From positions 1 to 64,000 of the forward strand of contig NZ_JPVQ01000001.1 in the NCBI RefSeq assembly GCF_000772965.1: DNA of 64,000 nt, given 5' to 3'. The notes under the pieces were generated by a model that was given only the letters and a program-made list of their open reading frames with translations, was not told the origin of the DNA and searched no databases. Each line of letters starts with the position of its first letter. Positions within the stretch are counted from its first letter, which is position 1. This document shows, piece after piece, positions 3,053-50,047 of the stretch. A program made the translations under genes and the position numbers. The stretch is from Ureibacillus massiliensis 4400831 = CIP 108448 = CCUG 49529 (lineage in GTDB: Bacteria; Bacillota; Bacilli; Bacillales_A; Planococcaceae).

Positions 3053-3964
3053 TTATTCTTTTGGTTGTAAGTCTTCAATTGAATCGATGTCCATATATGC
3101 AGGGACAACAAGTCCATTTTTCCCGCCAGTTAAATTAGGTCCTAAATCAACAATTTCTTCCTTGTACTCTTCATAGAAAGATCCGTGTGTTGTAGGTAAC
3201 CATGGTGCAAGGGAAGCATCGCCTTTGCCAGTTGCAATAGCTTGGAACATAATAACTGGATCTACAGGTGTTAGTGTAACATTGTAGCCTTGTTGTACTA
3301 ATACTTCATACATTACTTGCGCTGTAGCACGTTCTGTATCCCATGGAGTTAAAACTAATTCGATATCTTTTCCATCCACCTTTTCAGTACCTTCAATCCA
3401 TTCATTTACTTTTTCTGGATTCGCTTCAACCCAATTTTTTGCGGCTTCTTCCATTGAGATTTCTTGAGCGGCTAACACAATAGATTCGATATCTTCCAAT
3501 TCCCAATGAAAAGTATCAAGTATTTTATAAGCGTTCGGCATGTCTTCCTCTAATCCTTTTCTTGCAATGGTTTGAATGTTTTCCACTCCACCAAAAGCGC
3601 CTTTTGGGTCTTCAAGGAATTTCAAATCATATGCGGCGAATTTCCAGTGAGGGCTCCAACCAGATATAATAATAGGTTCCTCGTTCTTAATAGCGTCATC
3701 TAGTGCGGCAAGCATACCTACAGTAGAGCTTTCTTCAAGCTCCCAGCCTTCTAAATTATCATAGGCTTCTAATGTGTCTTTTGTAAGTTGGGTTAATCCT
3801 GCACCTGGTTCAACACCAGTAATCGTATAGTCCAAAGCTTCACTTAAACTAGGCTTTTCATCCTCTTGAACGTTTTGTTGAGCACTTTCGTCGTTACCGC
3901 AACCAGCTAGTAGTAAAGAAATGGACAGACCAAGTGTTATCCCTTTTAATTTTAAATTATTCAA
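3053..3964 (-). CDS. Glycine betaine/proline-type ABC substrate-binding lipoprotein
   Basis: A 303-residue OpuAC/ProX-family substrate-binding protein. A lipobox (LLLAGC, Cys22) follows a short basic signal, so it should be a membrane-anchored lipoprotein. The mature part contains segments typical of the family: the SGWSPHWKFAAYDLKFLEDP region near residue 100 and TPWDTERA near 207. Such proteins capture quaternary amines (glycine betaine, carnitine, choline) for an ATP-driven importer in osmoprotection. No permease or ATPase gene is next to it, so it is an orphan that may serve a transporter encoded elsewhere. The ligand is not predictable from this sequence alone. Confidence 0.88.
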   Translation of the reverse strand: MNNLKLKGITLGLSISLLLAGCGNDESAQQNVQEDEKPSLSEALDYTITGVEPGAGLTQLTKDTLEAYDNLEGWELEESSTVGMLAALDDAIKNEEPIIISGWSPHWKFAAYDLKFLEDPKGAFGGVENIQTIARKGLEEDMPNAYKILDTFHWELEDIESIVLAAQEISMEEAAKNWVEANPEKVNEWIEGTEKVDGKDIELVLTPWDTERATAQVMYEVLVQQGYNVTLTPVDPVIMFQAIATGKGDASLAPWLPTTHGSFYEEYKEEIVDLGPNLTGGKNGLVVPAYMDIDSIEDLQPKE

Positions 3965-21240: not shown

Positions 21241-21836
21241 TAGTATTTTAAACTTTCATCCATCTCAAGGTCATTTATTCTTAAAACATTCACCCTGCGA
21301 ACATCCAATAACAGCATAAGGAAAAGAATATGCATGACAAAGCTGATTACTAATAGCCCCATCGTGATGGATAGAATAAAATTATTAGGTAGATTCATAG
21401 CAAAAGTTGTACTTAAATAAAATAAAAATACAGCGCAAAAGTATGCGATGAACAAATTTTTTGAACGTTTGATTAATCTTACACTACCATGTGTTCGAAC
21501 TACTTCCAAAATGAGCTGGAAAGTATAAAAAATTAAAAGTAAATCGATTACTACAAAGGCAATTGAGTACCAAGACCAACCAAATAATTCATATGACTGA
21601 AGAAAAGAATTTCCTCCAGTTGATGCTGGACCCAAAACGTTGGGGATTGAAAGAATGACAAGCACTAAAGAGAGATTCGTTACTCTCTTGCCAATCGTAA
21701 ACTTTGAAGCAATTCGTTTAACTCCAGCATAAATCAAAAAATAACCAACTGGATCTGGTAACAAATCTATCATTATATAAAAGTCTAACCAAACGAAAAA
21801 GTATCCCCAAAAAATAGTTTGAAATGCATTTTTCAT
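21240..21836 (-). CDS. Unknown polytopic membrane protein
   Basis: A 198-residue protein with about six hydrophobic helices, the first near residues 8-28 and the last near 155-177, then a charged tail with LRINDLEMDESLKY. I do not recognise a family. Its start codon overlaps the stop of the upstream gene (TAATG). The two are therefore translationally coupled and probably work together, perhaps as a sensor or signalling pair. Nothing in the sequence suggests catalysis. Confidence 0.65.
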   Translation of the reverse strand: MKNAFQTIFWGYFFVWLDFYIMIDLLPDPVGYFLIYAGVKRIASKFTIGKRVTNLSLVLVILSIPNVLGPASTGGNSFLQSYELFGWSWYSIAFVVIDLLLIFYTFQLILEVVRTHGSVRLIKRSKNLFIAYFCAVFLFYLSTTFAMNLPNNFILSITMGLLVISFVMHILFLMLLLDVRRVNVLRINDLEMDESLKY

Positions 21837-22801
21837 TAGTTAAATCCTCCTTGCTTCTCAGCGATTATTTCATTAATTGTTCTTTGAGTGAAGTAGGGCA
21901 TATCAATAATAGGCTTTTTATGAACAAAAGTTTCGCCATTGTCAGTAGTACCTTCAATCCTGATATCAAAATAATAATAACTTCTATGTTCGGGGTTTAA
22001 TCGAATAAAAAGCTTTAGTAAGTCATTTTCATTTAAATGGATTGGAAATAGGCCATCATAAACTGTAATGGCATTTTTCTCATCATCCTTCATATTTAAT
22101 TTATTTTCCTTATACCAATCTCGTGAAACGGAAGGACTGAAAGCTGAATCGTCCAGTGAATTCAATATATCCTTATCAAGTCCAAGCTTCAGAAGTAAAT
22201 TCCCCCCAATCTCATCTTCAAAAGGAATGGAAATCTCTTCAATTGTTAAAGATTGTAAAATCTTCATATAGGAATCATGGTAATATTGGTTGCTACCTGA
22301 TCCATATCTTTCTTCCATCATAGTGGGAGGGCTAAATTTTCCATAAACAATTACCTCTCCAATATCAGCCTCAACGGTTTGCCCGTTTTTAAAGGTAACT
22401 TGAATCTCCTCAAAGCTCCAAATATCATCAGTCCCTTGTTGTATTGGAAGGTCAAAAGGATGAATTTCTAATGTAACTGATTTGAGATAGTGATGTATAT
22501 ACTCCTGTTCATATTGTATATATGGATCGTTTTGTGACCACCTCCACATCCCTTCGTTTGACACAGGGTACGCAGTGATGCCATCGATTACAGCATAGTT
22601 CACTTCCGCATCGGATGGATTCATTTTGTTCCCTAAATAATAAAGTTTAAATTTAAGCGTATCTTCTTCTGGTATATAAGTTTCGTAGTAATGATCGAAA
22701 AAAATAGGTTGTGCAAGCTGCTTTGATTGAAAATATATAAAGTTCCCTAACCAACTACAAATAACAATAGCTAGACCAATCCAAAAATATCGTACTTTCA
22801 A
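21836..22801 (-). CDS. Unknown membrane-anchored extracytoplasmic protein
   Basis: A 321-residue protein with one N-terminal hydrophobic anchor (about residues 5-25). A large outward-facing domain rich in aromatic and acidic residues follows, with several short beta-type segments but no motif I recognise. It starts at TTG behind GGGGG. It is coupled by a 1-nt overlap to the polytopic membrane protein downstream, so the two likely form one membrane complex. The upstream region (22802-23389) holds a repeat array and the divergent promoter of an MFS gene. Function is unknown. Confidence 0.6.
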   Translation of the reverse strand: MKVRYFWIGLAIVICSWLGNFIYFQSKQLAQPIFFDHYYETYIPEEDTLKFKLYYLGNKMNPSDAEVNYAVIDGITAYPVSNEGMWRWSQNDPYIQYEQEYIHHYLKSVTLEIHPFDLPIQQGTDDIWSFEEIQVTFKNGQTVEADIGEVIVYGKFSPPTMMEERYGSGSNQYYHDSYMKILQSLTIEEISIPFEDEIGGNLLLKLGLDKDILNSLDDSAFSPSVSRDWYKENKLNMKDDEKNAITVYDGLFPIHLNENDLLKLFIRLNPEHRSYYYFDIRIEGTTDNGETFVHKKPIIDMPYFTQRTINEIIAEKQGGFN

Positions 22802-22921
22802 GATATTACCCCCATTTTTACCTATTATTGGGTTTTTCTTTACTATAGGATATAAGATTTAATAAGTCGATGGAAGGATAAGTTTTGAATTTAATGCAAA
22901 TGAACTAATTAGATTTCATGT

Positions 22922-23217
22922 GCTCAGGAATGATAATTCAAGTAAAGAGTTTGGAGAGGTTATCTGCTCAAATGAAGGCTCCATTCGCTCAAAACATGGG
23001 GCTAACCGCTCAAAAAAATGCTAAGTGCCCAAAAGGATACCATATCCGCTCAAAAGTGATAATTAAGTGCCCTAGTGAATAAACTATGTGACCCAAACAA
23101 AGCTCTAAATGCCCGAAAGGTATGTCGTAGAAATAATAATCGAAATATCCGCTCAAATGAAATGCTATCCGCCCAATTAGGCTTCTACGTGACCCAATCG
23201 AATCTCCAACTGTCCTA
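22922..23217. repeat. Degenerate 20-21 nt periodic repeat array
   Basis: At least 12 copies of a degenerate unit with core (C/T)CGCTCAAAA or GTGCCCAAAA. The core G falls at 22966, 22987, 23008, 23027, 23048, 23069, 23090, 23111, 23151, 23171, 23191 and 23212, with an outlying copy at 22922. Spacing is 19-21 nt nearly throughout, about two helical turns, with one unit missing near 23131. It lies between divergent genes and is followed by the promoter of the MFS gene. It has no exact long repeats, so it is not CRISPR. Confidence 0.75.
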
Positions 23218-23261
23218 ATCCAAGGATCCGTGTAAATCCCATCAATAAATCTGATAAAACC

Positions 23262-23296
23262 TTGTTAAAAAAACAATAAATCCGTATAATTCGGAT
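23262..23296 (+). promoter_or_regulatory. Promoter of the second MFS gene with overlapping inverted repeat
   Basis: TTGTTA (23262-23267), a 17-nt spacer and TATAAT (23285-23290) form a strong promoter. ATCCG-n7-CGGAT (23280-23296) is a perfect 5-bp inverted repeat bracketing the -10 box, so a repressor site is plausible. The leader to the ATG is about 95 nt. Confidence 0.6.
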
Positions 23297-23389
23297 AAAG
23301 TTGATTGTTGTCAGAATATTTTCACATGATGATGCTTTCACAAAATCATAAAATTTCTAATAAATGAGATTAGATTAAGGGGAAACGAT

Positions 23390-24583
23390 ATGGGTGAAAA
23401 ATTAGAAGGGAAAATATGGACTGGACCGTTTATCGTAGCGGTTTTGAACAATTTTTTTCTATTTGTAGTGTACTATTGTTTATTAACATTGTTACCTGTT
23501 TACGTTCTAAATGAATTAAATGGAACAGAGGGTCAAGCAGGATTAGTTATCGCTATTTTTATGTTGTCTGCAATTCTAATTAGGCCTTTTTCAGGTAGAA
23601 TTATTGAAGTATTAGGAAAAAGGAAGACGCTAATTATTTCACAGCTTTTCTTTTGTATTTCCTCTGCATTATACATATTTATCGATTCTATTGAACTACT
23701 TTATGCATTGAGATTTTTTCATGGAATTTGGTTTAGTTTTGTGACAACGGCGTTAATTACCATAGTGAATGATTTTATTCCAGATAGTCGAAAGGGCGCG
23801 GGACTTGGCTATTATGCAATGTCCTCAAATCTAGCCGTCGTTTTTGGACCGTTTATTGCACTGACAACGATCCAGTGGTTTTCTTTTCAAATATTATTTA
23901 TTGGTTTAGCAACAGCGGTCTTTATTGGATATGTATTTGCCTTTACGCTGAAAGTAACTGAATATCAAAAGGATACTGAAGTTGAACGCCGATTCCTTTC
24001 GTGGGGGGATCTATTTGAAAAAAAGGCGATTCCTATTGCAATTGTAGCGTGTTTAACGTCCTTTGCGTATACAAGTATTATGTCTTTCATATCTGTATAT
24101 GCAGAGTCTAAAAATGTATTTGAATATGTTAGTTTATTTTTTATTGTATTTGCGATAGCCATGATTGTTGCTCGACCTTTTACAGGGAAATTATATGACA
24201 CAAAAGGGCCAAGCATAGTCGTCCTTCCGTCCTTCATACTGTTTGCGATGGGGTTATTCTTATTAAGTGTGATGGATTCGGTTACAATTTTATTAATTTC
24301 CGCTGTAGTAGTAGGTGTCGGCTATGGTTCCATTGTTCCATGCTTCCAAGCACTTGCTATACAATCTGCGGAAAAACATCGGAGTGCCCATGCAACGTCA
24401 ACATTTTGGACATTCTTTGATGGTGGCATTGCAATTGGTGCTTCAACACTAGGTGTAGTTTCAGCATTATGGAGCTATTCAACGATGTATCTTCTTTGTG
24501 GTGGGGTAATTGCGGTATCAATATTTATATATTGGAATTTAGTCAGTGGAAAAATAAAGCAAAGAAATGAAGTGAATATGTAA
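23390..24583 (+). CDS. MFS transporter
   Basis: A 397-residue, 12-helix major facilitator protein. The motif-A region IRPFSGRIIEVLGKRKTL is near residue 65 and the second-half copy ARPFTGKLYDTKG near 265. It is a paralogue of the MarR-linked MFS protein 2.2 kb upstream and shares its length and several whole segments. It starts at ATG behind AAGGGGAAA. It has no local MarR gene but has its own strong promoter with an inverted repeat over the -10 box. The substrate is unknown; drug or metabolite efflux is the default guess. Confidence 0.87.
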   Translation: MGEKLEGKIWTGPFIVAVLNNFFLFVVYYCLLTLLPVYVLNELNGTEGQAGLVIAIFMLSAILIRPFSGRIIEVLGKRKTLIISQLFFCISSALYIFIDSIELLYALRFFHGIWFSFVTTALITIVNDFIPDSRKGAGLGYYAMSSNLAVVFGPFIALTTIQWFSFQILFIGLATAVFIGYVFAFTLKVTEYQKDTEVERRFLSWGDLFEKKAIPIAIVACLTSFAYTSIMSFISVYAESKNVFEYVSLFFIVFAIAMIVARPFTGKLYDTKGPSIVVLPSFILFAMGLFLLSVMDSVTILLISAVVVGVGYGSIVPCFQALAIQSAEKHRSAHATSTFWTFFDGGIAIGASTLGVVSALWSYSTMYLLCGGVIAVSIFIYWNLVSGKIKQRNEVNM

Positions 24584-49034: not shown

Positions 49035-50047
49035 TCCTCTCGATAACCTAAAATCTCATTCCAATCTGGAGCAATCAGCTGACTAATATCCTCTTTTCCG
49101 TAAACCACTAAAGTATCAGAAGGAAGTTCAACTTGTTCGTTTGTTGGTCCATAATATAATTCTTCTGCAAATCCGATTTGTGCTTCCGTTTTTAATGTGT
49201 ATTCAATAAATTCCATTGCTAATTCAGCATTTTTACTACTTTCAAGTACACCTAAGCCGCTTCTAATTAATATTCCGCCTTCTTTTGGAATTGTAAATTC
49301 AACCGATTGACCAGCATCTTTTAAAGCGTATGCTCGTCCATCAAACCAAGAGGCTAGTACAATCTCATTTGAACTGAATAAAGACTCTGGTGAAGAAAAT
49401 GAAGAATAGTATTGTGAAATAGATGGTGTAAGTTCTTCATAGTAACTCCAAACTTTACTCATATCTGACTCAGAACTATTAACGGCTTCCTTAATCATCA
49501 AAATATCAGGGATCCATTGACTCATTAATGAAACTTTTCCAGAATAGTTTTGGTTAGATAAATCTAACCAAGATGTTGGTTGATCAACAACTTCCGGATT
49601 GTAAGCAAGTCCCCATGCGCCAAATACATTCACTATGCCATATAAATTTTCATCTTTTCCATATAACTTTGCTTGATCATATAAACTGTCCAAACTAGGT
49701 ATATTTTCAGAATTAATTGTTTTTAAATATCCCTGGTTCGCAGCATCGATTAAATCAAAATCATCTAATTGAATCACATCAATATTACCAGCTCCACCTT
49801 GTGCAATTTTTGTTACACCAGTATAAGGTGCTAGTTCAACATTGACATTAGGATGATCGTTTTCAAAAGGTTCTACTACGTATTTTGTTAATACTTCATC
49901 ATATGTACCTCCAAATGATGATACTGTAAGTGTTACACTTTCATTTGAGTCGGCTGCATTTGATGAAGAATTTTCATTACCATTTGAACATCCAACTAAT
50001 GTTGTTGCTGTTAACAAAAATAAAGATAACCATTTAGCCTTTTTCAA
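48998..50047 (-). CDS. Polyamine-type ABC substrate-binding lipoprotein (PotD-like)
   Basis: A 349-residue binding protein. The lipobox LVGCS (Cys about residue 20) anchors it outside the membrane. SSFGGTYDEVLTKYVVEPF at the mature N terminus is typical of the PotD/SBP_bac family. It is the first gene of the six-gene operon, starting at TTG behind GGAGGAG. A strong TnrA-type box lies 87 nt upstream. Binding of agmatine, a guanidino acid or an opine is suggested by the co-encoded ureohydrolase and RocB, not by the protein itself. Confidence 0.9.
   Translation of the reverse strand: MKKAKWLSLFLLTATTLVGCSNGNENSSSNAADSNESVTLTVSSFGGTYDEVLTKYVVEPFENDHPNVNVELAPYTGVTKIAQGGAGNIDVIQLDDFDLIDAANQGYLKTINSENIPSLDSLYDQAKLYGKDENLYGIVNVFGAWGLAYNPEVVDQPTSWLDLSNQNYSGKVSLMSQWIPDILMIKEAVNSSESDMSKVWSYYEELTPSISQYYSSFSSPESLFSSNEIVLASWFDGRAYALKDAGQSVEFTIPKEGGILIRSGLGVLESSKNAELAMEFIEYTLKTEAQIGFAEELYYGPTNEQVELPSDTLVVYGKEDISQLIAPDWNEILGYREEWLLKWTEVTTQ

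Follow-up and report, generated by a model that had tools for sequence, protein, structure and literature searches.

A ~21-nt intergenic repeat array of Ureibacillus massiliensis shares its unit type with arrays beside NERD-domain genes

An intergenic array of degenerate repeats, located in a 64,000-nucleotide stretch of the Ureibacillus massiliensis genome (hereafter the window), is built of the same type of unit as an array found beside a NERD-domain gene of that genome (G000, with contigs such as C88; L numbers denote fetched loci). At C88 the array is directly 3' of the gene, a position likewise taken, in other genomes, by arrays with other cores. Because such arrays adjoin, and vary together with, this family of nuclease-like genes, we favour the view that the array provides cooperative DNA docking sites for its cognate NERD-domain protein and would probably act as a self-DNA platform or sponge.

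Results

The array of the window

The array occupies a gap from which two genes diverge, one of 321 aa on the minus strand and, on the plus strand, one for a Major Facilitator Superfamily (MFS) transporter (Table 1). The preliminary description had reported at least twelve core units recurring every 19-21 nt between divergent genes, which is correct: 13 units were counted, with the G of the core at 22922, 22966, 22987, 23008, 23027, 23048, 23069, 23090, 23111, 23151, 23171, 23191 and 23212, and the successive steps (44, 21, 21, 19, 21, 21, 21, 21, 40, 20, 20 and 21 nt) follow a rhythm of mostly 19-21 nt in which two places are skipped. The core sequence proposed there required correction, as the unit is closer to TAnnYGCYCnAAA, a ~13-nt degenerate core joined to a ~8-nt spacer. 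A(-4) is present in 13/13 units and A(+5) in 12/13; G(0) and C(+3) occur in 13/13 units each but were both used as anchors, and independent evidence for the core comes from the other positions. That the units share the core and differ elsewhere is also borne out, the mean pairwise identity being 0.64 in the core and 0.35 in the spacer, against 0.27 expected from composition. Conserved cores separated by spacers of near-chance identity agree with the earlier judgement that this is more than simple slippage, and are a signature expected of binding sites.

The repeat array is real. Autocorrelation confirmed its periodicity, as 9 core pairs were observed at a lag of 19-22 nt, against a mean of 0.21 in first-order Markov resamples (0/5000 reached 9), with a degenerate core pattern that was picked after the array had been seen. 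Across the 64 kb, scanned on both strands in 300-nt segments moved by 50 nt, lag values above 1 were confined to segments overlapping the array. Elsewhere in the window, four similar 10-mers spaced by ~21 nt form a weak chain at 49501-49800.

The array had been described as neither CRISPR nor coding, and both statements stand. A CRISPR requires near-identical repeats, ~30-nt spacers and cas genes (sought here in four neighbouring frames), whereas the present cores are degenerate and ~13 nt long, with ~8-nt spacers. A coding repeat protein, or the remains of one, is rejected since steps of 44, 19, 40 and 20 shift the frame between units. The preliminary description also suggested that such motifs are often miscalled as small proteins; the one candidate considered here, a 54-aa open frame within the array, is probably not a gene, because the units keep no frame and the translation has no Pfam match. 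A plasmid iteron origin was also rejected, the neighbours scanned being the Pfam-less 321-aa gene and the MFS transporter, with no replication gene. A promoter scan came out empty.

Table 1. Coordinates of the window features and of the TGGACAAAA arrays at fetched loci
Feature	Location	Strand	Remarks
Left flanking gene	21836..22801	-	321 aa; without Pfam match at E 0.01
Right flanking gene	23390..24583	+	397 aa; Major Facilitator Superfamily transporter (PF07690)
Degenerate-unit array	22914..23224	+	n=13; consensus TAnnYGCYCnAAA; anchors 22922 to 23212
Open frame within array	22918..23082	+	54 aa; without Pfam match; probably not a gene
Element unalignable to orthologous locus G013:C1:521k	22912..23255	.	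species alignment
TGGACAAAA array	L353:1085-1616
TGGACAAAA array	L171:188-790
TGGACAAAA array	L356:912-1640
TGGACAAAA array	L337:433-1203
TGGACAAAA array	L172:1131-1330
TGGACAAAA array	L355:893-1320

History of the array sites

The bounds of the element in Table 1 mark where alignment between the species breaks down, and its flanks are 82-85% identical to those of the orthologous site in G013. This site measures 344 nt in the window and 655 nt in G013, where an array of the same unit type is built of 5-unit repeats of ~101-103 nt. A related species has thus kept an array at the orthologous site while the array sequence differs. All of the 9 G013 array loci compared (9/9) can be aligned to a G000 array locus through one or both flanks, and for L337 and L339 through just one; the G013 arrays at 778 and 893.6 kb have no G000 counterpart in the compared set, and at some orthologous sites, such as C142, the arrays of G000 and G013 themselves still align. 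From the alignment of G013 and G000 flanks it appears that many array sites are old and that their contents turn over at different rates. No array adjoins the homologs of the left flanking gene (42-45% identity) that G002, G006 and G011 encode; these were not counted as empty sites, synteny not being established.

Linkage of arrays to class A NERD genes

The NERD family model PF08378 has 9 matches in G000, and the C88 gene scores 54.6 bits against a cut-off of 22.1. The linkage was assessed on 63 of 125 NERD matches, drawn from 16 genomes and having frames of at least 272 aa and longer flanks; left out were genes with short frames, weak matches of a ~330-aa kind and a number of long-frame genes with short flanks, and L164, L165 and L173 entered through their arrays. 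The last ~60 residues divide the set into 44 class A and 19 class B genes, a split fixed after the contrast between them had been seen, and the class A C-terminus consists of a zinc ribbon and a ~60-residue module. An array was scored as a chain of at least four similar 10-mers at steps of 18-23 or 39-44 nt, which makes the score blind to other periods, in a zone from 45 nt before to 655 nt after the stop codon. By this measure a downstream array accompanies 36/44 class A and 0/18 usable class B loci (P = 8e-10, Fisher; the nineteenth class B locus was dropped as its downstream stretch reads N). Without the three loci found through their arrays the class A count is 33/41 (P = 2e-9), and shared ancestry inflates these figures as well as the Mantel figures given below. 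In a control of three shuffles per locus, a chain of four was reached by 0/46 class A and 1/17 class B loci, under an earlier split in which L225 and L227 were misfiled and which was later replaced by the final 44/19.

The 8/44 class A loci without a scored downstream array are varied: L206, L208 and L244 carry the array upstream, L260 ends at a contig edge, L249 is frame-broken with an array further on, L264 and L265 have weaker chains and L246 has none. A terminator between gene and array is not the rule, being present in 5/36 according to a simple scan that misses tight loops. Loose patterns for nuclease-like residues were found in both classes, QxD-like in 38/43 class A and 18/19 class B frames, and ExK-like in 39/43 and 19/19, respectively. 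Comparison of the class A module with solved structures gave no convincing relative, and, among defence models, two class A proteins matched MAD6 and one matched PglW, in each case weakly, in part and far below the cut-offs. At L179:2096-2300, in a genome from another family of the class (G031), a ~21-nt array with a TTTTTTAATCC core directly follows a 231-aa NERD gene that lacks the module.

A profile of class A C-termini (A2) matched 71/398 genomes of the class; in a sample of 398 from the phylum it matched 6, every one of them from this same class. It returned 36 loci, of which 32 could be scored and 20 had an array (1/32 shuffles reached four). When the 4 genes belonging to the first set are removed the count is 17/28, and among loci that are both outside the genus and absent from the first set an array is present in 15/26 and lacking in 11/26. 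The linkage between class A genes and arrays is, thus, common but not universal.

Similar arrays were found in other genera, in line with the suggestion in the preliminary description that such motifs occur in other Bacillales. A genome-wide scan of named genomes allowed too wide a gap, and most of the at least 118 stretches it produced reflect chance; the useful loci came from Lysinibacillus, Peribacillus, Fictibacillus and Filibacter. The window-type array of G008, a member of the genus of the window genome, is also found in Lysinibacillus fusiformis (JASENG010000002.1). Arrays of a CCGCTCAAA type are present in Peribacillus muralis, Fictibacillus nanhaiensis and Filibacter tadaridae (L147:1053-1840, L137:925-1000 and, on the minus strand, L150 at about 3635-3830 of that strand), and the profile did not find the class A module in the 8-kb pieces around them. 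At L174 and L175, ~22-nt repeats with TGCTCAAA lie inside a coding frame resembling a phage or plasmid replication gene, which may thus contain an origin and its iterons.

Period and motif diversity

Single steps in the 36 gene-linked arrays (n=231) measure 21 (184), 20 (25), 19 (18), 18 (3) and 22 nt (1). The spacing preference ascribed to the window array therefore recurs in other copies, with 184/231 steps at exactly 21 nt in a search that permitted 18-23 nt. Helical phasing had also been proposed. The ~21-nt rhythm on which this idea rests is found elsewhere, but phasing is not strict, as L221, L274 and L299 keep a constant 20 and many other arrays alternate 21 and 19.

The cores vary with the type of NERD gene (for example TCGCACGTAAA, TTGGCGGATA, TTTTGTCTATTATC and TCGCGAGTATT), and several array specificities coexist in a genome. 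Since cores differ between types while the period is constant, intrinsic curvature, which had been suggested as a function, finds no support in this argument from sequence. In 33 arrays motif similarity tracks C-terminal identity (Mantel r = 0.52, 0/2000 permutations as high) and, likewise, identity of the N-terminal part (r = 0.47, 0/2000 as high); the partial correlations are 0.25 for the C-terminal and 0.04 for the N-terminal part. Shared descent contributes to the correlation between motif and C-terminus, and several genes are closest to one gene by C-terminus and to another by motif. Within the window type the core is GTGATCAAAA in G000, G013 and G008, whose C-termini are 100, 86 and 69% identical to that of C88, and drifts to GTGACCGAAAA in G002 (77%), GTGCACAAAA in G017 (72%), CCGCACCAAA in G021 (65%) and CGGACGAAA in G020 (57%).

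Arrays away from the gene

G000 contains further window-type arrays, for example at C1:294 kb, C13:19 kb, C142:7 kb and C88:42 kb. Profile R1, built from window-type arrays of G000, G008 and G013 and hence favouring these genomes, matches the window at 22961-23176, two window segments being among its 17 source sequences. Under filters at which weak matches are lost, R1 arrays were detected in 11/61 genomes, all within the genus. Of 25 congeneric genomes, 12 encode the window-type C-terminus (56-100% identity; next best 37%), and a home array was scored for 11 of these 12 genes, the array in G024 being four units recognized by eye. R1 arrays occur in 9/12 genomes with the window-type gene vs 2/13 without it (P = 0.005). 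The discordant genomes are G009 and G010, with three R1 matches each and no cognate gene type, and G003, G022 and G024, in which the cognate gene type is present and an R1 match absent. In G003 (C26:1878-2136) two frames share the sequence of the window-type NERD gene, which is thus split; the home array is still visible and there is no R1 satellite.

In two complete genomes the satellite arrays crowd round the gene, 9/10 clusters in G013 and 11/14 in G002 lying within 260 kb of it (binomial 9e-8 and 2.5e-8), a limit set after the data had been seen and applied to clusters that we grouped ourselves. Window-type arrays are intergenic and indifferent to gene direction: a frame of at least 90 aa that spans more than half of the array is absent in 35/36 of them (four genomes), they occupy gaps between divergent (8), convergent (10) and tandem genes (15), and in tandem gaps 7 run with the genes and 8 against (n=15), a tally in which orthologous G000/G013 sites count twice.

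Crowding is no general rule, because the satellite clusters of a second gene type (TCGCACGTAAA, model R2) in the complete genome G005 lie 397, 1303, 1628 and 1665 kb away from their cognate gene (4 clusters among the 21 of 24 matches listed). This type is also dispersed: R2 matches 9/13 genomes, including all 5 sources of the model and also G006 (97 matches), G007, G011 and, once, G003, the latter four counted without pairing to a gene of this type.

An exact pair of TGGACAAAA at ~21 nt has 60 matches in G000, 50 in G013, 31 in G002 and 16 in G017, with 2 in G010 and a single one in each of G014 and G015; another 18 genomes have none, and the control matched nowhere. It was noticed afterwards that the four rich genomes are those whose cognate C-terminus is 72-100% identical. 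Arrays of TGGACAAAA (Table 1) have a ~21-nt period and ~103-nt higher-order repeats and share intergenic gaps with window-type arrays, from which clusters lie at most 1 kb away in 3/4 cases in G013 and 6/8 in G002, and one G017 array mixes the two kinds of unit. These sequences suggest that TGGACAAAA and window-type units may be a single type, xGNNCAAAA.

Discussion

The preliminary description envisaged cooperative binding by a nucleoid or regulatory protein. A DNA-binding protein remains the best reading, but the likely partner is the gene-linked, motif-matched NERD protein and not a general nucleoid protein. We propose that the C-terminal zinc ribbon and ~60-residue module would recognize the short core, and that the spacing of about two helical turns would place neighbouring monomers on one face of the helix, allowing them to bind cooperatively. 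The gene would keep a home array near its own 3' end, and satellites built of the same type of unit, among them the array of the window, would occupy intergenic DNA elsewhere. The likeliest role of such arrays may be to hold and concentrate a putatively nuclease-like protein on its own chromosome, as a self-DNA platform or sponge.

The strongest rival, which is compatible with docking although in itself unlikely, is a selfish satellite, in which the NERD protein would nick or break DNA at its own units and repair would duplicate the units and copy arrays into further intergenic sites, without any function for the cell. Amplification in ~101-103-nt higher-order repeats, the crowding of window-type arrays round the gene in two genomes, the intergenic position of arrays blind to direction and the coexistence of several specificities in a genome would all fit this model. 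So would the lack of matches in mobile elements: two class A proteins found none in plasmids, one found none in phages, and two scans of viral contigs for close relatives were empty, from which the array system looks chromosomal. Set against selfish spread is the finding that every G013 locus compared aligns, by one flank or both, with a G000 array locus, indicating that many sites are inherited; in addition, the second type is unclustered in G005, and the nuclease activity that the model requires is a prediction. It could also be argued that the repeats act as RNA, a transcript of the array binding or restraining the NERD protein in the fashion of a type III toxin-antitoxin system. Home arrays do follow the gene, often with no terminator between, and folding beats that of shuffled sequence for C142 on either strand (z -2.7 and -5.7) and for L259 on one (-2.5). 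We nevertheless regard an RNA device as improbable: the remaining folds of the 9 arrays, examined on both strands, scatter between -1.0 and +2.8, the full range (z -5.7 to +2.8) showing no common trend, the fold of the window array is ordinary (z +0.86), satellites disregard gene direction, and the ~21-nt step is left unexplained. The window array, furthermore, has no match in Rfam.

There is also little probability that the arrays are sites for some other nucleoid or regulatory DNA-binding protein which merely share regions with NERD genes. The period suits helical phasing, and the occupation of divergent, convergent and tandem gaps alike would be expected of such sites, but this reading explains neither the motifs specific to NERD subtypes nor the class B genes that have no arrays. 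Finally, higher-order duplication is plain in many copies, as it would be if the arrays were neutral tandem repeats, or DNA of intrinsic curvature, that no protein recognizes; the resemblance of cores across spacers of near-chance identity, the single period shared by different motifs and the linkage to the NERD gene make this explanation highly improbable.

The arrays suggest that satellite-like bacterial DNA may be co-evolving with a linked gene. They offer one branch of the NERD family a candidate target that is readable from the genome, with one motif per protein type, and make the binding, specificity and role of this branch directly testable. More tentatively, and with some doubt on our part, the data may point to a new class of chromosomal nuclease-satellite systems, encountered here only in Bacilli, in which each type of a multi-copy NERD nuclease family would have evolved its own recognition module along with a ~21-bp satellite and would seed many arrays in the chromosome (for one type or more, in the neighbourhood of the gene), for selfish ends or for self-recognition. 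The portions of the literature on NERD domains and intergenic repeats that our search covered hold no published account linking NERD genes to such arrays.

NERD domains occur in many bacteria and also inside defence proteins such as PglW and MAD6. These two proteins, and SmdA of Staphylococcus aureus, share the domain (PF08378) with the array-linked genes. According to the authors of the SmdA study, the function of NERD had never before been studied experimentally, and mutations in the NERD domain of SmdA abolished or reduced the effect of its overexpression; the sections of that 2022 report available to us describe no repeat array (PMC9040797). In the text accessible from two other papers, a NERD gene is merely mentioned near upp (PMC12802215), and one is given as a putative CRISPR auxiliary gene by association score (PMC10910872). 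We would guess that ~21-nt arrays may have been taken for CRISPR behind that score.

The arrays resemble several known systems in part. In type III toxin-antitoxin systems (ToxIN and its kin) an RNA repeat array, with repeats of about 36 nt, lies upstream of the toxin; a nuclease-like gene beside a tandem repeat array is common to both, whereas the arrays described here are dispersed and mostly downstream, with weak evidence at the RNA level. ParB/parS and MatP/matS are examples of dispersed sites for one protein that crowd in one region of the chromosome, as do the window-type arrays in two genomes. However, parS and matS are single palindromes, and no inverted repeat of 12 or more was found in 22880-23320; the sites considered here are tandem direct arrays with a motif for each gene type, and those of the second type are uncrowded. 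Plasmid iterons, bound by a Rep initiator whose gene lies close by, are direct repeats some 20-22 bp long. The arrays are like iteron origins in consisting of ~21-nt direct repeats beside a linked gene, and differ from them in being chromosomal and in having many dispersed copies.
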